Source: Ignavibacteriota bacterium | GTDB lineage: Bacteria; Bacteroidota; Ignavibacteria; UBA10030; SZUA-254 | Direction of reading: 5' to 3' | Assembly (NCBI GenBank): GCA_025358305.1 | Contig: JANYJZ010000006.1 | Coordinates: 1-64,000 of the forward strand | Length of the DNA: 64,000 bases | Part shown: positions 42,199-53,668 of the stretch, one piece after another | How the letters are laid out: the number at the start of each line of letters is the position of its first letter | Position numbering within the stretch: the stretch's first letter is position 1 | Notes under the pieces: generated by a model | What the model saw: only the letters and a program-made list of their open reading frames with translations | Database searches by the model: none | Told to the model about the DNA's origin: nothing | Program-made: the position numbers and the translations under genes

Positions 42199-43515
42199 TC
42201 AGTCGTAGTATTCGACGCCCAAGTGCGTGATGAGCTCCTCGCCCTTAAGGTGGCGAAGGGTGTTTTTGAGTTTCATGAGCTGGATGAACAGGTCGTGCTC
42301 CGGATAGAGTCCGGGCGCGGACATCGGGCTCTTGTAATAGAACGAGAGCCATTCCTGGATCCCCTTCATGCCGGCACGTTGGGCCAGGTCCATGAACAGG
42401 ACGAGATCGAGAACGATCGGCGCCGCCAAGATCGAGTCGCGGCAGAGGAAGTTCACCTTGATCTGCATGGGATAGCCCATCCACCCGAAGATGTCGATGT
42501 TATCCCAGCTCTCCTTGTTGTCGCCGCGCGGGGGATAGTAGTTGATCCGGACCTTGTGGTAGAAGTCCTTGTAGAGGGTCGGATAGAGTTCGGGCTGCAG
42601 GATGCCGTCCAGCACGGAAAGCTTGCTCTCCTCCTTCGTCTTGAACGATTCCGGATCGTCCAACACCTCTCCGTCGCGGTTCCCCAGGATGTTGCTCGAG
42701 AACCAGCCGCTCAAGCCGATGAGCCGCGCCTTCAGCATCGGCGCAAGGACGGTCTTCAGGAGCGTCTGGCCGGTCTTGAAGTCCTTGCCCGACACGGCGA
42801 CGCCGTTCTTCTTCGCGAGCTCCATGAGAGCTGGCGTATCGACGGTGAGGTTCGGTGCGCCGTTGGCGAACGGCACACCCTCCATGAGCGCCGCATAGGC
42901 GTAGAGCATGCTCGGGGCGATATCGACGTGGTTCTTCTTCATCGCCTCGACGAACGACTTCAGGGACTTGTGCGCTGCGCCGGGGGTGATATAGACCTCG
43001 GTGCTGCCGCACCAGATGACGATCGTGCGGTCGAGCTTGTTCTTCGCGGTGAACGTGCGGATATCCTCGCGGATCTGTTCTGCGAGTTCGAACTTCGTCT
43101 TGGCCTTCTTCACGAACGAGCCCTTGAGCCGCTTCACGTAGAACTGATCGAACACCGCCTTCATCGGCTTGATGGCCTGGAGCTCTTTCCGGACGGTGTC
43201 GAGGTGCTCCCCTTCCAGGACGCCGGCATGCACGGCCGAATCGTAGCAGTTCTCGTCGCGGATGTCCCACCCGCCAAAGACGAGGTCGTCGAGTTTCGCC
43301 AGGGGGATGAAATTCTTAATGAGCGGCGAGCGGCGGTCCGTCCGTTTGCCGAGCCGGATCGCGCCCATCTGTGTAAGCGAGCCGATCGGCTGGGCCGTCC
43401 CTTTGCGGATGGCAAGGACGCCGGCGAGGAAGGTCGTGGCGACCGCGCCGTTGATGCCGACGATGAGAACGCCGAGTTTTCCCTTGGGTTTTTTGATCAC
43501 TGCAGTTGTTGGCAT
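42199..43515 (-). CDS. ino1: myo-inositol-1-phosphate synthase
   Basis: Converts glucose 6-phosphate to inositol 1-phosphate with NAD+ as a recycled cofactor. The 438-residue product has the Rossmann start GVLIVGINGAVATT, the catalytic-domain blocks SGKDFKTGQTLLKTV, SNILGNRDGEVL and SVLDG, and ends KNTLRHLKGEELITHLGVEYYD. It is the last gene of the cluster. AAAAAAGGAATC precedes the ATG. An 86-base gap with a small hairpin separates it from the HAD gene, the only sizeable gap in the operon. Confidence 0.96.
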   Translation of the reverse strand: MPTTAVIKKPKGKLGVLIVGINGAVATTFLAGVLAIRKGTAQPIGSLTQMGAIRLGKRTDRRSPLIKNFIPLAKLDDLVFGGWDIRDENCYDSAVHAGVLEGEHLDTVRKELQAIKPMKAVFDQFYVKRLKGSFVKKAKTKFELAEQIREDIRTFTAKNKLDRTIVIWCGSTEVYITPGAAHKSLKSFVEAMKKNHVDIAPSMLYAYAALMEGVPFANGAPNLTVDTPALMELAKKNGVAVSGKDFKTGQTLLKTVLAPMLKARLIGLSGWFSSNILGNRDGEVLDDPESFKTKEESKLSVLDGILQPELYPTLYKDFYHKVRINYYPPRGDNKESWDNIDIFGWMGYPMQIKVNFLCRDSILAAPIVLDLVLFMDLAQRAGMKGIQEWLSFYYKSPMSAPGLYPEHDLFIQLMKLKNTLRHLKGEELITHLGVEYYD

Positions 43516-43601: not shown

Positions 43602-44282
43602 TTAATGTAAGAAAATCTCCTGAATCTCGCTGAACTTTTGTATGGTCCGGTCGGCGGCCGTCGTCGAAGGGGGCGTGTTCCAGCTTTTCCCCCTGAGCCA
43701 GACGGTCGAGCAGCCGAGCTTCTTTCCGGGAACAATGTCCCGGTCGTACGAATCCCCCACGACGGTCGCCATCGCGGCCGGGAGCCGCAGCCTCTCGAGC
43801 GCGAGTGCGAAGATGGCCGGATCGGGCTTCCGTATGCCCACGACCGTGGAGTCAATGGCGACGGAAAAGAGCTTCTCGAGGCCGAACTCTCTGCAGACGA
43901 TCTCGAGGTTCCCGGTGAAGTTCGAGACGACGCCGAGACGGTACCGCGGCGCCAGTAGGTCAAGAGTCTCTTTCGCCCGCGCGATCGTCCGGCGGACGTC
44001 GTCGTAGCAGGTCCGGGACATCTCCTCGAAGAGGCTGCCGGAAGCCGGCATTTTCAGGAGCTCGAACTGGATCCGCCACTGGCGCGCGAGCGTTGCTTCG
44101 AACGTCAATTGCGCGACGCCGGGGTCGGCCAGGAGCATCTTCTCCGACTCGACAAACGCCCGCTCGACATCGACGTTGGGCACATCAGGCGCGAACCGCG
44201 CATAGAGTTCCGAGAACTTCTCGCTCCAGTGGACACCGTCGGTGTCGATCGTCCCGCCGAAATCAAAGAGGATCGCCTTCAC
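43602..44282 (-). CDS. HAD-superfamily hydrolase
   Basis: A 226-residue HAD phosphatase with motif I ILFDFGGTID, motif II VVSNFTGN, motif III lysine in GIRKPDPAIF and motif IV VVGDSYDRD. The usual second Asp of DxD in motif I is Gly, as in some HAD subgroups. By context it may dephosphorylate inositol phosphate or a cyclitol phosphate. It starts at GTG overlapping the oxidoreductase stop by four bases, so the longer open frame upstream is not used. Confidence 0.85.
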   Translation of the reverse strand: MKAILFDFGGTIDTDGVHWSEKFSELYARFAPDVPNVDVERAFVESEKMLLADPGVAQLTFEATLARQWRIQFELLKMPASGSLFEEMSRTCYDDVRRTIARAKETLDLLAPRYRLGVVSNFTGNLEIVCREFGLEKLFSVAIDSTVVGIRKPDPAIFALALERLRLPAAMATVVGDSYDRDIVPGKKLGCSTVWLRGKSWNTPPSTTAADRTIQKFSEIQEIFLH

Positions 44283-45295
44283 GCGGACGGTATGACCCGT
44301 TGTTCCTCGGAGGAGCGGTAGCTCATGTCGAGGAGCTTCATGACGTTCGTCGCCTCGACCAGGAGGTCGTCGGAGATGTTCTTCGCGGCGATCCGTCCGT
44401 GGAAGTCCTTGAGGAGCGCGGCGTACCAGGCGATGTACTGCTTCTTGTCGGAAACGTCCGGCATCGGGATCTCGCGGGTGTCCGCGCCGGAGACGAGGAC
44501 GAGCCGCGTCCCGTCGTACGAAAGGGTTCCCTTGCTGCCGGCGATGAAGACGCTGTTCGCTCTGGCGCTCGCCGCCCAGGTGAGCGTCATCTGCATGAGC
44601 ATATGGTCGTACTCGAGGACGACCGACGCGGTGTCCTCGACGCCGTAGTCCGCATGCTTCAGCGTCCGCAGGAGCGCCGAAACGTTCTTCGGCATGCCGA
44701 AGAAGTACTGTGCTAAATAGAGATAATGCGCGCCGGTGTCGACGAGGATGCCCCCTCCGCTCTGGGCCTTGTTCGTGCGCCACTGGGGATTCCAGGCGGC
44801 CGTTCCGGAGTCCGCCTGAAGACGGTAGACGTTGAACTGCGACATCGTCACCGTCCCGAGCTCGTCGGAGGCGATGAGGTCGTGGATCGTCCTCCAGAGC
44901 GGCGAATACTTGTACTGATGGCAGGGCATGAAGACGATGCCCGCGCCTCGCAAGGTCCGTTCAATCGCGGCGCTCTTTGACGCGTGTTCCACCAGGGGCT
45001 TCTCGCAAAGGCAGTGGATGCCGCGCTTGGCGAACGACTCGAGGTACGCTGCATGCGTGTGCGGCGGCGTGCAGATATCGATGAAGTCGAGCTTCTCGGC
45101 CGCCAGGAGCGACTCCACATCGGTGTAGAAGCGCGTTCCGGGAAGGTACTCGTGGGCCTTTTCGCGGTTTTGGGCGACGACGTCCATCACCGCGACGAGT
45201 TCCATCGACGCTCGGATCTCTTCCGAGAGATACGCCGGCACGTGCCCGCGTACGGCGATGTTCCCGAGGCCGATAAGGGCGCCTTTGAGCTTCAT
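44279..45295 (-). CDS. Gfo/Idh/MocA-family dehydrogenase
   Basis: A 338-residue NAD(P)-dependent oxidoreductase with an N-terminal Rossmann fold (ALIGLGNIAVRGH), the family lysine in CEKPLVEH, and the catalytic DTGAH in GGGILVDTGAHYLYL. The family includes inositol 2-dehydrogenases and the scyllo-inosamine pathway dehydrogenase StrI. In this operon, with inositol phosphate synthase and an aminotransferase, oxidation of a cyclitol hydroxyl to a ketone is the natural guess. It overlaps the CDP-alcohol transferase stop by four bases. Confidence 0.88.
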   Translation of the reverse strand: MKLKGALIGLGNIAVRGHVPAYLSEEIRASMELVAVMDVVAQNREKAHEYLPGTRFYTDVESLLAAEKLDFIDICTPPHTHAAYLESFAKRGIHCLCEKPLVEHASKSAAIERTLRGAGIVFMPCHQYKYSPLWRTIHDLIASDELGTVTMSQFNVYRLQADSGTAAWNPQWRTNKAQSGGGILVDTGAHYLYLAQYFFGMPKNVSALLRTLKHADYGVEDTASVVLEYDHMLMQMTLTWAASARANSVFIAGSKGTLSYDGTRLVLVSGADTREIPMPDVSDKKQYIAWYAALLKDFHGRIAAKNISDDLLVEATNVMKLLDMSYRSSEEQRVIPSA

Positions 45296-46206
45296 GGCCT
45301 TGCCTCGACCATGGAGGTGAGTTCCGCGCTCAGGCGCTCTTGGCGGATCGTCGTCGCGATCATGATGAGATTGATCACGATGATCTCGGTGGCGAAGTAG
45401 AGGGGCACGAAGTCGAGTAGCACCGCCAGGGACATGACGATCATCCTCGTGTTCGTCGTGAGGACCGCGTAGTACTTCATGAGCGGCTTATTCCGGCTCC
45501 GGTACGCGTCGGAGAACCAGGCCGGGATGTTCTGTCCGTACCGCGACGCAACAAGCTTCCGCAAGCGCTGGAAGTTCCTCGAGAGCGACTCCTGCTGGAC
45601 CGTGTAGTTGAGGTAGACCCGCATGAGGAGCTTCTTCACCGGATGCTGACGAAACCTCATCGCCTCGTACTCTCTGCGCACTTCGTCCGCCCCTTCGAGC
45701 TCAGACTTCATCGGGTCGACGACGAACTTGAGGTACGCGTTCCGGTAGTAGTCGGCGAGCGAGCTCTGCAGCGAGTGGCTCGCGCCCCCGGCCAGGACGA
45801 TGCCGAAAAGCCAGTACCACCCAACATCATACGTGACGACCATTCGCGCGAACAGGTGGAGGTAGAAGCTCACGAACATGAGGTTGCCGCCGAGGCCGTC
45901 GAGGATCCGGCCGATCTTCGACTTGTGGTTCGTCATTCGGGCAAGCTGGCCGTCGACGCTGTCGAGGGTGTCGGCGATGACCCAGAAGAGGATCCCCATG
46001 AGGTTCGCCGTCACGTCCCGGAAATAGAACAGGTGGCCGGCGTACACCCCGATGAAGATGCTCACGATCGTCACGGCGTTCGGCGTTATGCCGAACGCCT
46101 GACAACCGCGCGCGACGAGGTAGCCGATCGGACGGTAGAAGTAGATGTCGATCGTCTCTTCGACGTCGACAGCCTTATACGTTGATTCGATCCGCGACAA
46201 GGCCAA
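45292..46206 (-). CDS. CDP-alcohol phosphotransferase, first copy, lacking the last motif Asp
   Basis: A 304-residue membrane protein with about six helices. The family motif DxxDGxxAR...GxxxDxxxD is present as LDSVDGQLAR then GRILDGLGG: the last Asp, the presumed base, is Gly. The family joins a CDP-activated alcohol to a second alcohol. Translation starts at TTG 46206 behind AGAGGTG and overlaps the aminotransferase end by 32 bases. The substrate may be CDP-inositol or CDP-diacylglycerol; the missing Asp leaves activity open. Confidence 0.82.
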   Translation of the reverse strand: MALSRIESTYKAVDVEETIDIYFYRPIGYLVARGCQAFGITPNAVTIVSIFIGVYAGHLFYFRDVTANLMGILFWVIADTLDSVDGQLARMTNHKSKIGRILDGLGGNLMFVSFYLHLFARMVVTYDVGWYWLFGIVLAGGASHSLQSSLADYYRNAYLKFVVDPMKSELEGADEVRREYEAMRFRQHPVKKLLMRVYLNYTVQQESLSRNFQRLRKLVASRYGQNIPAWFSDAYRSRNKPLMKYYAVLTTNTRMIVMSLAVLLDFVPLYFATEIIVINLIMIATTIRQERLSAELTSMVEARP

Positions 46207-47533
46207 ACACCTCTTCCATGATTGCGATGCCTTCCTCCGCCGTCGCCTCGTCGATGATGAGCGGCGGGTTGATCCGGATGTCGGGATTGTACCCCATCGT
46301 GATCAGGCCCCGCTTGAGGCACTCGTGGAAGATGAATTTGCAAGTTTCCTTGTCGAGCTTCTCCTTCGTCGCGCGGTCCTTCACCAGTTCGACGCCGATG
46401 AGGAGGCCGCGGCCTCTGACCTCGCCGATAAAGGGGAACTTCGACTGGAGCGCCTGGAGCCGCTTGAGCATGAACGCGCCGACCCGGGCGGAGTTCTCGA
46501 CGAGGCCGTCCTCGATGATCGTCTTGACGGTGACGTACGCCGCGGCAGATGCGAGCGGGTTGCCGCCGTAGCTCGAGGAGCTGCCGCTCGCGTTCGCGAA
46601 CGGCTTCGAGAAGATGACCTTGTCGCTCGACATCAGCCCGGTCATCGGATAGCCGCCGCCGAAACTCTTGCCGATCGTGATGATGTCGGGCCGAACGTTG
46701 TCGTGCTGCGCGGCGAAGAGCTTGCCGGTCCGTCCGAAGCCGGTGATCATCTCGTCGACGATGAGGAGCGCCCCTTGGTCGTCCGCGAGCTTCCGAAGCT
46801 CGAGGAGGAACCCGTCGGGAGGAACGACGTTGCCGTTGGTCCCCTGGATCGGTTCGACGATGATCGCCGCGAGATTGCCGGTCGTCTCGACCTTGATCTT
46901 CTCGCGGATGAAGTCGACGCAGGCCCACTTGCAGTCGGGAAAGGTCAGATGGAGCGGGCAGCGCCGGCAGTTCGCGTACGGCGTGTTGTAGATGCCCGCC
47001 GGGAGGGGTCCGAGCTGGTGCTTGAACGTGTCGCCGATGAGGCCGACGACGCCCAGGGTCTTGCCGTGGAAGCCGCCCCAGAAGCCCATGACCTCGGTCT
47101 TCTTCGTGTACGACTTCGCAAGGCGAAGCGCCGCCTCGACGGCCTCGGCGCCGCCCGAGTAGTACTGGGTGCGGTAGAGGTCGGCGACGCAGTTCTCCGC
47201 GAGCATCTTCGACAGGTCCGCGCGGACCTTCGTCGTGAAGCTGCCGACGTGGATCTTCGCGACCTGCTCCGACATCATCTTGACGTACTTCGGATGGTTG
47301 TACCCGAGGCTCGCCACCGCGACGCCGGCGAAGAAGTCGATGTAGCGGTTTCCGTCGACGTCCTGGACAATGCACCCATCGCCGCGCTCCATGACGAGCT
47401 GTGAGAGCGTCGCGATCGTCTGCGTGCCGGGGGAAATGTACTTTTGTTCTAGTTCATAGATCTCCTTGGACTTCGGTCCGGGGAGCGCCGTTTTCACAGA
47501 TGCTTTTTTTGAGTGCGTTTCATGTACCAACAT
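46175..47533 (-). CDS. class III PLP-dependent aminotransferase
   Basis: A 452-residue omega-type aminotransferase. Family features include SGGAEAVEAALRLAK, FHGKTLG, IIVEPIQGTNG, LIVDEMITGFGRTGK and the PLP lysine in TIGKSFGGGYPM. A cysteine-rich loop (NCRRC...DCKWAC) is typical of the AGXT2/GABA subgroup. In this context a keto-cyclitol is a possible amino acceptor. The ATG at 47533 follows AAAGGCACAGGAC and overlaps the ATP-grasp gene by 14 bases. Confidence 0.88.
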   Translation of the reverse strand: MLVHETHSKKASVKTALPGPKSKEIYELEQKYISPGTQTIATLSQLVMERGDGCIVQDVDGNRYIDFFAGVAVASLGYNHPKYVKMMSEQVAKIHVGSFTTKVRADLSKMLAENCVADLYRTQYYSGGAEAVEAALRLAKSYTKKTEVMGFWGGFHGKTLGVVGLIGDTFKHQLGPLPAGIYNTPYANCRRCPLHLTFPDCKWACVDFIREKIKVETTGNLAAIIVEPIQGTNGNVVPPDGFLLELRKLADDQGALLIVDEMITGFGRTGKLFAAQHDNVRPDIITIGKSFGGGYPMTGLMSSDKVIFSKPFANASGSSSSYGGNPLASAAAYVTVKTIIEDGLVENSARVGAFMLKRLQALQSKFPFIGEVRGRGLLIGVELVKDRATKEKLDKETCKFIFHECLKRGLITMGYNPDIRINPPLIIDEATAEEGIAIMEEVFGLVADRINV

Positions 47534-48344
47534 GGTCCTGTGCCTTTCTGTAGATGAGTTGTGCAATATGCCGGCTCGCCTGTTCACGTACCGGGGCGAA
47601 ACTCGGCCAGTCGTTGATGTCGATGATCGTGATGCTCGCGTCGCGGCCGATGATCGCGTCGCCGCCGTAGACGAAGAGGTTCATCACCTCGGCGGAGGCC
47701 GAGGCGAGCTCCCGGAGCTTCGATTCGTCGAACTTCGTATGGTAGACGCCGTTGAGATAGTACCAGTGGAAGAGCTCGGTCTCCCGGACGGCGTAGAACT
47801 TCACCGTGTCGCCGTCGAGATGTTCCTGGAGGATCGCCTGGTGGATGTCGCGCTGCCGGAACTCCTTCAACAGATTGAGCTCCTCGTCGTCCGTGTTCGC
47901 GAGGGTCACGTCCTCCTTGTGCACCGCGTGGACGTCGCCGCGCTTGATCCAGACCTTCTCGGACTGGAACCCCGCCTGGCGCGGGTTGATGTCGGAGTCC
48001 GTCCCGACGATGACGCTCTTCGGGAACGGGATCCCCGCCGCCGGCAGGATCTTCACCATGTTGATCCGGTAGCAGTTCATCACCGCGTGCGGAGAATTGA
48101 TGATGTACGCGCCGCGCTCTTCGATCGTCATCAAAGTCTTCGACCCCAAGGGCCCCTGGGCCATGGAAAAGATGAGCCGCTCCTTCACGGAGTCGGGAGT
48201 GATGAGGCCCTCGTCGTACATCGTCACCTCCGCCCCCAAGGCGCGCAGGGCGTCCGCGGTCTGGTTGATGATGAGGAGGTCGTTCACCACGTGATTGGGT
48301 GAGAATTCCGTCTTGCGGCTGATGCCGCCGAATTTCAGTTTCAT
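47520..48344 (-). CDS. ATP-grasp-fold enzyme of unknown substrate
   Basis: A 274-residue protein resembling RimK/ITPK-like ATP-grasp enzymes: KVWIKRGDVHAV (nucleotide-binding lysine strand), ILQEHLDGDTVKFYAV, and the C-terminal metal-binding IIDINDWPSFAP. Members either ligate an amino acid to an amine or phosphorylate inositol phosphates. Both would fit this operon. Its start overlaps nothing upstream beyond the four-base ATGA junction with the second CDP-alcohol enzyme. Confidence 0.75.
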   Translation of the reverse strand: MKLKFGGISRKTEFSPNHVVNDLLIINQTADALRALGAEVTMYDEGLITPDSVKERLIFSMAQGPLGSKTLMTIEERGAYIINSPHAVMNCYRINMVKILPAAGIPFPKSVIVGTDSDINPRQAGFQSEKVWIKRGDVHAVHKEDVTLANTDDEELNLLKEFRQRDIHQAILQEHLDGDTVKFYAVRETELFHWYYLNGVYHTKFDESKLRELASASAEVMNLFVYGGDAIIGRDASITIIDINDWPSFAPVREQASRHIAQLIYRKAQDHVGT

Positions 48345-48982
48345 GAAAAGAGTTTCGATAAGAATGATGGAGGATCGTCGGGCGGCTGCGCTATCCCGGA
48401 AGAGATCTCGCGCTCGCGCCGGGTGATCGCCTCGCGGTCGATCGTCTGCTGGAACCGGTAGTCGACGAGCACCGTGCCGACGATGAACCCTGCGAGGTTG
48501 GCGAAGAACACGACCTGGAGGGCGATCTCAAAGCCCCGGACATGGAACATGACCATCGCCGCGTAGCCGAAGTACATCATGAACCGCTTGAAGCCCGGAT
48601 CGAACTTGGATTTGGGCTCGATCCACGTGATGAGAAGGATCGCCGTGAACGCCAGGAAGGCCATCCGGACGCTCGCGAGACCAACATACGCAAGTGCGAG
48701 AAAGAAGACAAACTCGTTGAGGCGGTCGAAGACCACTTCGAAGAGCTCTCCGCGCTTCGACTGGAGCTTGTACCTCCGCGCGACGCCGCCGTCGAGGCCG
48801 TCGACGATCTGGGAGGCGGCGAGTGCGGCGAGCGCGGCTTCGAGGCGCCCCGCGACGACGAGGCCCGCCGCGATCATCCCGAGGATGAACCCGATCACCG
48901 AGATCTGGTTCGGCGACAGACCCAATGTCTCGTGGACGAACCGTATCGGAAAGCTCAGTATGCCGTCGGATTCTTTTCCCAT
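48341..48982 (-). CDS. CDP-alcohol phosphotransferase, second copy, with Asp-to-Glu change
   Basis: A 213-residue membrane protein with the motif VDGLDGGVAR then GELFEVVFD: the third Asp of the signature is Glu, while the final Asp is kept. The first copy has the reverse pattern (third Asp kept, last lost). The two may act on different alcohols, or as a pair. It starts four bases after the YdjM-like stop. Confidence 0.85.
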   Translation of the reverse strand: MGKESDGILSFPIRFVHETLGLSPNQISVIGFILGMIAAGLVVAGRLEAALAALAASQIVDGLDGGVARRYKLQSKRGELFEVVFDRLNEFVFFLALAYVGLASVRMAFLAFTAILLITWIEPKSKFDPGFKRFMMYFGYAAMVMFHVRGFEIALQVVFFANLAGFIVGTVLVDYRFQQTIDREAITRREREISSGIAQPPDDPPSFLSKLFS

Positions 48983-48986
48983 AGCC

Positions 48987-49448
48987 CTAGGAGAACATCA
49001 AAAGTGGGCTGCGTCCGGCGGCCGCAAGGACCGCGATGAGAATGGCCGAGACGCCGCAGACCCAGATCTCCTTCGCCGTATCGGACGTCCCGCGCCAGAC
49101 CCCTTCGGTCGTGTACGTGCTGAAGGGATACCAGGGGCGTTTCTCGTAGCTCACCATGTAGTCCAGGGCGAAGTGCGAGAAGAAGAAGAGCGCCGGCACG
49201 TACGTGCCTAGGTAGAACGACAGGGGGATGATCCAGGCGAGCGCGATCGGCTCCTGGAACGGCGTGCGCCAGTGGTAATGCTTCTCGTTCTTCTTCCCGT
49301 TCTTCTTCAGGTAGAGCGGGAGCTTGATCGGGTGGTCGATGAGGTCGATGCCGTAGCCGAACGCGTAGGCGAGCGCGGCGTCGGGCCCGTGGAGACCGAG
49401 GACCTGGACGCCGACCGTCGTCAGGAGGAGATGCGGGAGGATGGTCAC
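48987..49448 (-). CDS. YdjM-like membrane-bound metal-dependent hydrolase
   Basis: A 153-residue protein with three or four membrane segments and His/Asp motifs on the membrane face: YGIDLIDH, HYHWRTPFQEP and SHFALDYM. This resembles the YdjM/DUF457 inner membrane proteins predicted to be metal-dependent hydrolases. It starts at GTG 49448, five bases after the flippase-like stop; the longer upstream frame is a shadow. Confidence 0.7.
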   Translation of the reverse strand: MTILPHLLLTTVGVQVLGLHGPDAALAYAFGYGIDLIDHPIKLPLYLKKNGKKNEKHYHWRTPFQEPIALAWIIPLSFYLGTYVPALFFFSHFALDYMVSYEKRPWYPFSTYTTEGVWRGTSDTAKEIWVCGVSAILIAVLAAAGRSPLLMFS

Positions 49449-49453
49449 GGGCG

Positions 49454-50464
49454 TCAGGACCCCCCTTTCGGCTCGAGGCCCCGCTTCTCTCCGGACAGGA
49501 GAATGAAGAGGAGTCCGAGAAGGATCCAGAAGAACTCTCTGAGGCGCATGACGATGCCGAGGTAGACCCCCAAGAGCGGCGTGAGGCCGAGGCTCTCGAG
49601 GCCGAGGTAGAGGCCCCCTTCGCGCGCGCCGAGGTTCATCGGGATGAAGAACATGAGGTTGATGACGATCGAGTAGACGAGGTAGAGAAAGAGCGCCGAC
49701 GGCAGCGTCACGTCGATGCCGACGCCTTGGAGGATGAGGTAGACCTCGAGGCCCATGAAGGCACGGCTCGCATACTCCAACAGCACGGCGCCATAGAGCG
49801 TCCCGCGCCGCTCGTGGTAGACTTCTGTGATCGTCCGGTCCATCTCGGCAAGCGACGCCTCGTTTCGTCCGAGCGCCGCGGCGGCGCGACGGAGGAACGG
49901 AAGAGCGCTCAGGATCGACTTGAGGCGTGAAAAGAACCCGTACCGGTGGCCCAGGATGGTCGCGGCGATAACGCCGCAGATGAGGAATCCCACGAGTGCG
50001 AGTCCCGCCATGAGCGCCGGGGGTAGCGAGAGCGCCGTGAGCGCCACCGCCACGCCCGTCAGGAGGAGAAGCATGTGTCCGAGGAGGTGGACCATGCGGT
50101 AGAGCACCACCGCCGAGACCGACCGTTCTTTGCCGAGGGCGCCGGAGAGCACGCTCACTTTGTACGGTTCGCCGCCGATGGCGATGATCGGCGTGATGTA
50201 GTTGATGCTGAACCCGGAGACCGTCACCATGAAGAGCTTCCGGAACGAGACGTCGGCGCCGTGCTCCCCGAGGACAAGCCGCCACGCGGACGTGTTGAGG
50301 AGGTAGATCGCGAGCCACACGATGACGACATAGATGAGGCTCCACCCCGCTTTGTGCGCGTTCTCGAGGATCCGTCCGAGTCCGAGCTGGCTCACGAGAT
50401 AGACGAAAATGCCGAGCCCGAAGAGGAAGAAAAAGACGTTGACGGGGGTGAACTTCTGCCGCAT
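49454..50464 (-). CDS. flippase-like membrane protein (lysylphosphatidylglycerol synthase TM family)
   Basis: A 336-residue protein with about eight membrane helices and the PF03706-type signatures TVSGFSINYITPI, GGEPYKV and PMNLGAREGG. The family includes the MprF flippase half and many proteins suspected of moving lipid-linked molecules across the membrane. It shares one base with the MlaD-like stop (TGATG), so translation is tightly coupled. Confidence 0.88.
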   Translation of the reverse strand: MRQKFTPVNVFFFLFGLGIFVYLVSQLGLGRILENAHKAGWSLIYVVIVWLAIYLLNTSAWRLVLGEHGADVSFRKLFMVTVSGFSINYITPIIAIGGEPYKVSVLSGALGKERSVSAVVLYRMVHLLGHMLLLLTGVAVALTALSLPPALMAGLALVGFLICGVIAATILGHRYGFFSRLKSILSALPFLRRAAAALGRNEASLAEMDRTITEVYHERRGTLYGAVLLEYASRAFMGLEVYLILQGVGIDVTLPSALFLYLVYSIVINLMFFIPMNLGAREGGLYLGLESLGLTPLLGVYLGIVMRLREFFWILLGLLFILLSGEKRGLEPKGGS

Positions 50465-51426
50465 CAGAATACCGAGAATTTCACATAGCGCTCCGGGTGC
50501 TCCCGGAGGTCGATGAGGAGGAGGTTCATGTCGCGCATGAGTTTCAAGAGGTCGGTCGAGTAGTGGCCGTCCGAAATGAGCCGGGAGACGTTGCTCGAGT
50601 CCGCGTTCACCTTTGCCATGAGTGAATCGGCTCGGGCAGTGAATGTGGCGAGGTTCGTATACAGACGGTCGTCCATGACGAGTTTCCCAAGGGAGCCCTC
50701 GCCTTTGCGGATCTGGTCGGTCACGGTCTTGAGGTTTGAGGAAACGTCCGTCATGTTCCCCGCGAGCGCCGGGTCGTAGACGAGCTTCCCGACCGATCCC
50801 CGCTTCTCCTCGATCGCGGCCATCATGCCGTTCATCGAATGGAGGAACCGTTCCATCTCATTCGCCATCGTCGGCTGGTTGATGAGCCGGGAGACGGAAC
50901 CGTTCCCACGCTCGATGGCGCCGGTGATGCGCCGGGCGTTCCCCATGACCTCGGTGAACTCTGCGAGCGCCGTCTTGAGCGACGGGCCCGCCGCCTCGAG
51001 GTCGAACGATTCCCGCAAGGGGACGAGCGAGTTGTCGGCCAGCGGCGTCTCGCCCTGCTTGCCGATGCCGATGTCGATGTATTTATCGCCGAGGAGGCCG
51101 ATCGTCTTGATCTGCGCGATGGAACTGGTCGTGATCGTCGAACGGTATTCATCGAGGACCTTCACGGTGACGTCCACGCCGTTGAGCGAGTCCTTCGTGC
51201 TGAATTCCATCTTCTTGACGTAGCCGACCTTCAGGCCGCCCAAGGTGACCATCGCCCCGTTCACCAGCCCCTGGACGTTCGGCAGGAAGAGCCTCAGCGA
51301 GTAGGTCGAAGCAAAGAGGCTCTGCTCGCTACCGACCGTGCTGATCATGAAGACGAAGATGATGAGCCCGATGAGGACGACGATCCCGATCTTCAGCCTG
51401 GCCCAACTGTAGTGTGGTTCGCTCAT
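50464..51426 (-). CDS. MlaD/Mce-family lipid transport protein
   Basis: A 320-residue protein with one N-terminal membrane helix (about 10-30) and an Mce domain (about 40-120: LRLFLPNVQGLVNGAMVTLGGLKVGYV, IGLLGDKYIDIG). A long helical region follows, with repeats of GSVGKLV and GEGSLGKLV type, as in proteins that build hexameric channels bridging the periplasm. It lies eight bases after the ATPase gene, in the order MlaE-MlaF-MlaD. Confidence 0.92.
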   Translation of the reverse strand: MSEPHYSWARLKIGIVVLIGLIIFVFMISTVGSEQSLFASTYSLRLFLPNVQGLVNGAMVTLGGLKVGYVKKMEFSTKDSLNGVDVTVKVLDEYRSTITTSSIAQIKTIGLLGDKYIDIGIGKQGETPLADNSLVPLRESFDLEAAGPSLKTALAEFTEVMGNARRITGAIERGNGSVSRLINQPTMANEMERFLHSMNGMMAAIEEKRGSVGKLVYDPALAGNMTDVSSNLKTVTDQIRKGEGSLGKLVMDDRLYTNLATFTARADSLMAKVNADSSNVSRLISDGHYSTDLLKLMRDMNLLLIDLREHPERYVKFSVF

Positions 51427-51434
51427 AATGGGTT

Positions 51435-52184
51435 CTAGAGAGAGAGTAAGTTGGCTTCTTCCCGTATCTCAGAGAGAAAATTCCGGACGAACGGATCTTC
51501 GGACGCGAGCAGCGTTCTCGCCGCGCCGTCGAAGACGATCGAGCCCTCGTTGATGAGGGCGAGCGAATCGCCCACGGCAAAGGCGTCGCGCAGAATGTGC
51601 GTCACGATGACGGAGGTGACGCGCCGTTCCTGCTTCAGCTTCATGACGAGTTCCGTCACCGTCTTTGCGTTGATCGGATCGAGCCCGGTCGTCGGCTCGT
51701 CGTAGAGGATCACTTCCGGATGGAACGCGATCGCCCGGGCGATCGCGACCCGCTTCTTCATCCCGCCCGAGATCTCCTCCGGGAGAAGGTCCGTCGTTCC
51801 GGGGAGGTTGACGAACTCGAGGCACTCGTCGACCCGGTCGCGGACCTCGGCGTCGGTCATGTCGGAATGCTCCCGGAGGAAGAATCCGACGTTCTCCCCC
51901 ACCGTCAACGAGTCGAACAGCGCGTTCCCCTGGAACACCATCGACATCCTTCGGCGAATCGGCATCTGCTCCCGCTCGCTCAACCGCGTGATCTCCGTGC
52001 CGTCCACGCTCACGGTCCCGGAATCGGGCCGCCAGAGCCCGAGAATGATCTTCAGGACCGAGCTCTTGCCGGCGCCGCTCGGCCCGAGGAGGACCTTCGT
52101 CTCCCCCTTCTCCACGCGAAAGGTGACGTCATCGAGGATCTTTCGATCGTCGGCGGTGACGGTGATATGTTCGAGGGCGATCAT
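51435..52184 (-). CDS. MlaF-like ABC ATPase
   Basis: A 249-residue ABC ATPase: Walker A GPSGAGKSS, signature ISGGMKKRVAIARA and Walker B VILYDEPTTGLDP, with the MlaF-type MSMVFQGNALFDSLTV. It powers the MlaE permease. The ATG at 52184 is chosen by homology; the 15-codon extension upstream overlaps mlaE. There is no strong ribosome binding site. Confidence 0.94.
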   Translation of the reverse strand: MIALEHITVTADDRKILDDVTFRVEKGETKVLLGPSGAGKSSVLKIILGLWRPDSGTVSVDGTEITRLSEREQMPIRRRMSMVFQGNALFDSLTVGENVGFFLREHSDMTDAEVRDRVDECLEFVNLPGTTDLLPEEISGGMKKRVAIARAIAFHPEVILYDEPTTGLDPINAKTVTELVMKLKQERRVTSVIVTHILRDAFAVGDSLALINEGSIVFDGAARTLLASEDPFVRNFLSEIREEANLLSL

Positions 52185-52188
52185 GATA

Positions 52189-52974
52189 TCAGAGGAGCGT
52201 CCAGACGACCTTCGTGAAGATGAAATCATTGAACAGCACGACCACCGAGGCGACGACGACCGCGTTCACGGCCGCGCGGCCCACGCCGATCGTCCCGCCG
52301 GTCGTGGCGAGACCGTAGTAGCAGCTGATCGTCGAGATGAAGAACGAGAAGACGACCGGCTTGCCGAACCCGACGATGAGATCCTTGATCGCGAGGTCCT
52401 TGATGGCCGACTGCCAGAAAAACCCCTTGTCGACATTGAGCCAAATGGACGACACATACATCGCGCCGACGAGGCCGACGAGGTCGGCGATGAGCGTCAG
52501 GGGCATGAACATGACCATGGACGCTGCGAGACGCGGGACGGAGAGTTTTTCGATCGGGTTGGTACCGAACGCCCTCAAGGCGTCGATCTGCTCGCTCACC
52601 TGCATCGAGCCGAGTTCGGATGCGTTCTTCGCGCCCGTCCGGGCCGCCATGAGGAGGCCGGTGATGACCGGTCCGAGCTCCCGGAACATCGCCAGGGACG
52701 TCGTACGCCCCACGAGGAGCTTCGCGCCGAACGTCTCAAGGCGGTGGCCCGTCTCGATCGCCATGATGATCCCCATGAAGAGTCCCGAGAGGAAGGCGAT
52801 CGGGAATGACTGCGCGCCGATGAGGTACATCTGCTCGACGAAGTCCTTCCGGTAGCGCCAGAGACTCGGGAGCCCGCGGATGTTCTCGTAGACGAAGATG
52901 GAATATTCCTGCAGGTGGAAGAGCCGCCGCTTGAACGAGCGTACGATCGCTATGTCCCGGGCGGCCTCAGGCAT
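52189..52974 (-). CDS. MlaE-family ABC permease
   Basis: A 261-residue permease with the MlaE hallmarks RELGPVITGLLMAARTGAKNASELG and SEQIDALRAFGTNPI. It transports phospholipids or other lipids between membranes together with MlaF and MlaD. It overlaps the cytidylyltransferase-like gene by eight bases, and mlaF starts four bases after its stop. Confidence 0.94.
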   Translation of the reverse strand: MPEAARDIAIVRSFKRRLFHLQEYSIFVYENIRGLPSLWRYRKDFVEQMYLIGAQSFPIAFLSGLFMGIIMAIETGHRLETFGAKLLVGRTTSLAMFRELGPVITGLLMAARTGAKNASELGSMQVSEQIDALRAFGTNPIEKLSVPRLAASMVMFMPLTLIADLVGLVGAMYVSSIWLNVDKGFFWQSAIKDLAIKDLIVGFGKPVVFSFFISTISCYYGLATTGGTIGVGRAAVNAVVVASVVVLFNDFIFTKVVWTLL

Positions 52975-53668
52975 GATGGCCGCGCAGGAGTTCCTCAGCG
53001 GTCTGGATGTCGCGCAGATGATCGACGTCGATCATCTTGGAGAACGGGAATGCTTCGATACGATAGCCCTTTTGAACGAGATGACTGAGAAAGTTCCGGA
53101 GGCGCTCCACGCCCGCCGCGAGCACAGGATCGATCTCCTGGAAGACCCGCGGACTGAAGATGTAGAGCCCGCCGGTCACCCATCGCGAGCGCTCCGTCTT
53201 CGAGAACCCCGTAATCCGCTTGGACGCGTCAACGGCCGCATAGAGCGGGCTCTCGTCGTCGACGAAATCGGTCACCGCGAGGATCCCGTCCGACTCCGGA
53301 CGTCCTTGCGCGTGGCGCAAGTATCCTTTGAGCTCCCCCTCGTCGAAGATGGCGTCCACCGTCGAGAGGAGGAATTGCCCGTCCGAGAGGTGCGGCGCGA
53401 GCGCGAAGAGGCTGTGCATGGAGCTCGGCGTCGTCTTGACGACGAACCGGATCGGCACCTGGAAGTGCTTGTCTTCTACGAACTTCCGCACGTCGAGGGA
53501 GTACTCGTTGACGATGATGGAGATCTCGGAGATCCCGGCGCGCTCGAGCGCACAGATGAGGCGCTCGATGAGAGGGACGCCGTTGACCGGAACGAGGGGT
53601 TTCGGCAGAGCGATCCCTTCCGACCTGAGCCGGCTCCCTTCCCCCGCTGCGATGATCCCTGCTTTCAC
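52967..53668 (-). CDS. sugar/cyclitol-phosphate nucleotidyltransferase, inositol-1-phosphate cytidylyltransferase-like
   Basis: A 233-residue NTP transferase with the activating loop GIIAAGEGSRLR, the PKPLVPVNG lysine, SEISIIVNEYS, LLSTVDAIFDEGEL and the C-terminal IDVDHLRDIQTAEELL. The overall pattern and gene context resemble inositol-1-phosphate cytidylyltransferase, which makes CDP-inositol; a hexose or glycerol substrate cannot be excluded. It begins at GTG 53668 behind TCAGGAC and is the first gene of the operon. Confidence 0.8.
   Translation of the reverse strand: MKAGIIAAGEGSRLRSEGIALPKPLVPVNGVPLIERLICALERAGISEISIIVNEYSLDVRKFVEDKHFQVPIRFVVKTTPSSMHSLFALAPHLSDGQFLLSTVDAIFDEGELKGYLRHAQGRPESDGILAVTDFVDDESPLYAAVDASKRITGFSKTERSRWVTGGLYIFSPRVFQEIDPVLAAGVERLRNFLSHLVQKGYRIEAFPFSKMIDVDHLRDIQTAEELLRGHHA

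Follow-up and report, generated by a model that had tools for sequence, protein, structure and literature searches.

The stretch of DNA analysed here (the window) comprises the first 64,000 nucleotides of contig JANYJZ010000006.1 of an Ignavibacteriota bacterium. It contains an operon of 13 co-directional genes on the minus strand, which runs from position 53668 to position 42199 and ends with the gene for myo-inositol-1-phosphate synthase (MIPS) (Table 1). Neighbouring genes overlap or lie no more than 8 bases apart, with the exception of 86 bases ahead of MIPS, and the mutual overlaps among AT3, CDPA, GFO and HAD measure 4 to 32 bases. The labels, order and coordinates of these four genes (43602-47533), as given in a preliminary description of the window, agreed with the Pfam matches and the translations. 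Most family assignments were Pfam or NCBIfam matches, the ATP-grasp protein was assigned by profile and fold, and the labels MlaE, MlaF and MlaD are based on reading of the translations. Scans for promoters and terminators gave results at chance level, and neither the translations nor Pfam pointed to a glycosyltransferase among the 13 genes.

Table 1. Genes of the operon in order of transcription, with their positions in the window and the basis of assignment.
Gene product	Position	Strand	Basis
NTP transferase (NTP), candidate inositol-1-phosphate cytidylyltransferase; first gene, GTG start	52967..53668	-	PF00483/PF12804
MlaE-like permease	52189..52974	-	translation reading; position conserved in family
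MlaF-like ATPase	51435..52184	-	translation reading; conserved in family
MlaD-like (MCE) substrate-binding protein	50464..51426	-	translation reading; conserved in family
Flippase-like membrane protein (FLIP), LPG_synthase_TM	49454..50464	-	PF03706 4e-28; TIGR00374 above cut-off
Small membrane protein, invariant His, Asp, Tyr	48987..49448	-	70-85% identity in family
Second CDP-alcohol phosphotransferase (CDPB)	48341..48982	-	PF01066 42 bits, cut-off 22
ATP-grasp enzyme (RIMK), core member; candidate ligase or ITPK-like inositol kinase	47520..48344	-	deep profile, model
Class III PLP aminotransferase (AT3), cassette member	46175..47533	-	PF00202 E 4e-95, 319 bits
CDP-alcohol phosphotransferase (CDPA), core member	45292..46206	-	PF01066 43 bits, cut-off 22
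Gfo/Idh/MocA dehydrogenase (GFO), cassette member	44279..45295	-	PF01408/PF22725/PF02894
HAD-IA protein (HAD), core member	43602..44282	-	PF00702/PF13419
Myo-inositol-1-phosphate synthase (MIPS)	42199..43515	-	PF07994 4e-106, PF01658 2e-33

A search with CDPA identified six further genomes of the family, belonging to five further genera, at 66-72% identity; with the genome of the window, the conserved gene order extends to seven genomes from six genera. Five of these relatives have the complete set of 13 genes in unchanged order, while in the sixth (L028) the flippase-like gene alone was undetected and the rest of the operon was present. AT3 and MIPS were the most conserved proteins of the operon, AT3 with 80-84% identity within the family and 64-68% across families; the identity of GFO within the family was 54-66%. 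The small membrane protein, for which no match was obtained in Pfam or NCBIfam, and CDPB were restricted to the family of the window among the loci examined.

When the phylum was searched with the ATP-grasp protein as query and named genomes were scanned, a related core emerged across Bacteroidota (e.g. in Phocaeicola, Parabacteroides, Dysgonomonas, Sphingobacterium, Runella and Dyadobacter), composed of NTP, ATP-grasp, CDPA and HAD, often with the flippase-like gene and usually with MIPS. Phocaeicola massiliensis (L147) had the same gene order, including the ATP-grasp and the flippase-like genes. Among 99 loci with CDPA, some of them cut by contig ends, AT3 and GFO were both present in 22, both absent from 77 and in no case present singly. 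The tree of these loci required four changes, and all four independent AT3/GFO changes were joint (p 0.125), four being too few to reach significance on their own. Among 391 genomes of the class Ignavibacteria, at the thresholds used, the identical 27 held AT3 and GFO and 364 held neither; the 27 are related and do not represent 27 independent events. Throughout these 27, one of which has the pair twice, GFO follows AT3 on the same strand at a distance of about one gene. In the loci compared, the two genes retain their positions flanking CDPA. One genome (G088) contains one cluster with the cassette and one without it. No AT3 orthologue was seen outside the class in a phylum sample of 335 genomes. 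In five genomes with AT3-less clusters the class III enzymes encoded elsewhere were only remote (31-42% identity), and a sixth, with a partial cluster, had no class III enzyme at that threshold. Since the core cluster exists across Bacteroidota without them, AT3 and GFO are a paired add-on to the inositol-lipid core and not members of it. The association of the two genes drawn in the preliminary description is thus not due to chance, given the conserved order and the identical set of genomes. Their joint presence shows coupling, as distinct from a shared action on the headgroup. MlaEFD, examined as a further partner of the cassette, proved only loosely coupled to it, as one locus has MlaEFD without AT3 (L064) and another AT3 without MlaEFD (L069). 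A full cluster was also present in a record named Patescibacteria group bacterium BroJett037 (L081), which probably is a mislabelled or contaminated bin, or else reflects transfer.

Among the enzymes of the lipid pathway, NTP matched the model of the bifunctional IPCT/DIPPS (NF041135) at 5e-16, under the cut-off, and the archaeal IPCT 2xme was among its PDB matches. The nearest NCBIfam model of CDPB was the archaetidylinositol phosphate synthase (NF040950), also under the cut-off, and Glu occupies the position of the third Asp in its motif. Of 99 CDPA rows, only one keeps the fourth Asp of the CDP-alcohol motif DxxDGxxAR...GxxxDxxxD; the other 98 lack it, 97 having Gly and one Ser in its place. 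The protein of the window has Gly, and CDP-alcohol paralogues in its own genome keep the Asp. One residue past this position there is Asp mostly in Bacteroidales and Asn in Ignavibacteria. Elsewhere in the genome of the window (L038, C36, 7102-9305) two CDPA-related CDP-alcohol phosphotransferases with a normal motif are encoded in tandem, and such a pair was also found in other genomes of the family and the order. The deep profile of the ATP-grasp protein gave weak matches to the ester-forming ligase PsnB (1e-5) and to ITPK (1e-4). Its predicted structure had a pLDDT of 46 when built from 7 close sequences and of 92 when built from 86 sequences, the latter model having the general ATP-grasp fold that fits many ATP-grasp enzymes equally, ligases and kinases alike. 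The gene is present also in clusters without AT3; it is tandemly duplicated at four loci (L061, L065, L066 and L067), all of which carry AT3 and GFO.

Instead of the phosphatase motif DxDGT, the HAD protein of the window contains DxGGT, as do about 90 of 91 homologues, so that the second Asp is absent. The protein is encoded in clusters with or without AT3 and GFO. It had been regarded as a phosphatase of an amino-cyclitol branch, in which inositol would be dephosphorylated first and then oxidised as by StrI. We rejected a dedicated phosphatase of such a branch, since the gene is present in clusters without the cassette, and with HAD as a core protein devoid of the second Asp, the dephosphorylation-first order is unsupported. 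The oxidation by GFO may act on phosphorylated or lipid-linked inositol.

GFO matched PF01408, the Rossmann domain of Gfo/Idh/MocA dehydrogenases, above the cut-off. Lys99 of the EKP motif, and Asp186 and His190 of the DxxxH motif, which we take to be the catalytic residues of the Gfo/Idh/MocA site, were invariant in all 15 rows. Its best NCBIfam model was the inositol 2-dehydrogenase IolG (TIGR04380) with 84 bits, and by the curated cut-off of 355 GFO does not count as a member of IolG. Solved relatives were mixed, ranging from glucuronide 3-dehydrogenase to myo-inositol 2-dehydrogenase, and by sequence GFO was about as near to glycoside 3-dehydrogenases as to inositol 2-dehydrogenase. Therefore, with mixed relatives and a score under the IolG cut-off, the substrate of GFO is not readable from its sequence.

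AT3 matched PF00202 only (Pfam, 0.001) and is a class III aminotransferase; at the same threshold it had no Pfam match to PF01041 (DegT/DnrJ/EryC1/StrS), the usual aminocyclitol type, which confirms the difference in class remarked on earlier. The PLP-binding Lys289 was invariant, with TIGK in 23 of 23 sequences, and so was the carboxylate-binding Arg420 of the RxxPPL segment. In GABA and ornithine aminotransferases, a gate Glu following EPxQG masks the carboxylate Arg and gates omega-amino-acid substrates. This Glu of EPxQGE is present in 7vno and is replaced in AT3 by Thr232 (23/23 sequences), which suggests that AT3 is not an omega-aminotransferase of the GABA/ornithine type; its lack presumably suits an enzyme that takes its amino group from an alpha-amino acid and passes it to an acceptor other than an omega-amino acid. 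The nearest solved structures of AT3 were an archaeal 4-aminobutyrate aminotransferase-like protein and amino-acid racemases.

In the pathway that we propose, MIPS, as assigned by family, would convert glucose 6-phosphate to inositol phosphate, the NTP transferase would turn this into CDP-inositol, and CDPA would move inositol phosphate from CDP-inositol to a lipid acceptor, the latter two steps as proposed for the Bacteroides cluster. Judging by family and residues, GFO would use NAD(P)+ to convert a single ring hydroxyl into a ketone, on a substrate suggested by the context, and AT3 would aminate the ketone with PLP and an alpha-amino acid donor, e.g. glutamate. Candidate substrates for the two reactions are free inositol, inositol phosphate, CDP-inositol and the completed lipid. 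Transport of the lipid towards the outer membrane would then fall to MlaEFD together with the flippase-like protein. Because of their joint presence, their position flanking CDPA and the chemistry of their families, GFO and AT3 probably act in sequence, the one oxidising and the other aminating, and because of the inositol context of the operon the inositol moiety is most likely their substrate. Of the oxidation-amination branch put forward in the preliminary description, the inseparable pair on an inositol-lipid core and the conserved catalytic residues stand in favour, while the IolG score and the equal nearness to glycoside 3-dehydrogenases weaken its application to inositol, as do the membership of AT3 in class III and not DegT and the confinement of the pair to one class. 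We give an even chance to the view that the operon makes and moves an inositol phospholipid in which the AT3/GFO cassette swaps one hydroxyl of inositol for an amine. We propose somewhat more tentatively an inosamine phospholipid of Ignavibacteria, in which a class III aminotransferase and a Gfo dehydrogenase have been added to a CDP-inositol-type Bacteroidota pathway with MlaEFD-like delivery. The genome also encodes a phosphatidylserine decarboxylase, which weakens the idea of the aminated lipid as a replacement for phosphatidylethanolamine; therefore such a lipid would add to phosphatidylethanolamine and not substitute for it.

The main rival of an aminated inositol is a sugar-phosphate route like that of NtdC/NtdA, in which GFO and AT3 would act in sequence on another substrate, e.g. 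a sugar phosphate (kanosamine-like), and the resulting amino sugar or amino polyol would be attached to the inositol lipid or exported along with it, perhaps serving CDPA or CDPB as acceptor. Although NtdC and NtdA together with NtdB perform such chemistry on glucose 6-phosphate (PMC8788734), and GFO has glycoside 3-dehydrogenases among its solved relatives, the lack of a recognised glycosyltransferase in the operon and the occurrence of HAD in clusters without the pair, so that there is no dedicated trio, make this route unlikely. Slightly less probable, in our view, are separate jobs for two co-inherited enzymes, with AT3 as an amino-acid aminotransferase or racemase (feeding, for example, the ATP-grasp enzyme) and GFO oxidising or reducing inositol for supply. 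The closest solved relatives of AT3 and the resemblance of the ATP-grasp neighbour to RimK and to the ligase PsnB would fit such a division, but it does not account for AT3 and GFO being gained and lost together, the ATP-grasp gene occurs also where AT3 is absent, and AT3 lacks the gate Glu. A chance or hitchhiking insertion with no role in the lipid pathway would agree with the restriction of the pair to one class and with the 77 loci devoid of it, but is highly improbable and already disfavoured by conservation, since few proteins of the operon are as conserved as AT3 and the flanking positions around CDPA are kept.

Inositol lipids are rare in bacteria and have been recognised only recently. 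Our search of open papers yielded no study of an inosamine phospholipid or of inositol lipids in Ignavibacteria, and no description of an amino-bearing inositol headgroup. A pair of genes that are present together and absent together within the putative operon for such lipids leads to a testable prediction, an amino-bearing inositol lipid, and names two enzymes for it. Moreover, the putative core pathway gains a conserved ATP-grasp member, and its CDP-alcohol enzyme lacks the customary fourth Asp.

Several known systems share parts of this arrangement. The kanosamine operon ntdCAB, which makes kanosamine from glucose 6-phosphate, likewise combines a dehydrogenase (NtdC, glucose-6-phosphate 3-dehydrogenase), a PLP aminotransferase (NtdA) and a phosphatase (NtdB) in one operon, but its substrate is glucose 6-phosphate and it has neither MIPS nor lipid enzymes (PMC8788734). 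In the IPCT/DIPPS of hyperthermophiles (NF041135, 4mnd) the cytidylyltransferase half resembles NTP and the phosphotransferase half CDPA and CDPB, whereas in the window these are separate proteins, all far under the family cut-off. The hygromycin A branch Hyg18-Hyg25-Hyg17-Hyg8 has MIPS, a PF01408 dehydrogenase and an aminotransferase as in the window, and Hyg17 with Hyg8 provides a precedent for oxidation and amination; it differs as an antibiotic pathway with a phosphatase step (PMC10949010). DegT enzymes are the usual aminotransferases of aminocyclitol pathways; near PF01408 genes they outnumber class III aminotransferases about 12-fold (PMC10949010). In the rhizopine (scyllo-inosamine) route an inositol dehydrogenase is followed by a PLP aminotransferase, as proposed for GFO and AT3, and IolG with the aminotransferase MosB converts myo-inositol to scyllo-inosamine in vitro (PMC6668481), so oxidation-amination chemistry on inositol is known. 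This route yields a soluble product and has no lipid operon, and the comparison with AT3/GFO concerns the chemistry. The core of the operon (NTP, ATP-grasp, CDPA, flippase-like protein, HAD and MIPS) matches the “putative alternative inositol lipid cluster” of Bacteroides vulgatus and Prevotella among gut Bacteroidetes (Heaver et al. 2022, PMC9246714), for which the authors proposed a CDP-inositol intermediate, stated as unconfirmed, and did not mention the ATP-grasp gene. Both have an NTP transferase, a CDP-alcohol phosphotransferase and a HAD protein beside MIPS, as do the homologous clusters of Phocaeicola, Parabacteroides and Dysgonomonas used for the comparison, but the published cluster contains no aminotransferase, no dehydrogenase and no MlaEFD. 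The operon is best read as an aminated variant of this known, putative inositol-lipid pathway.
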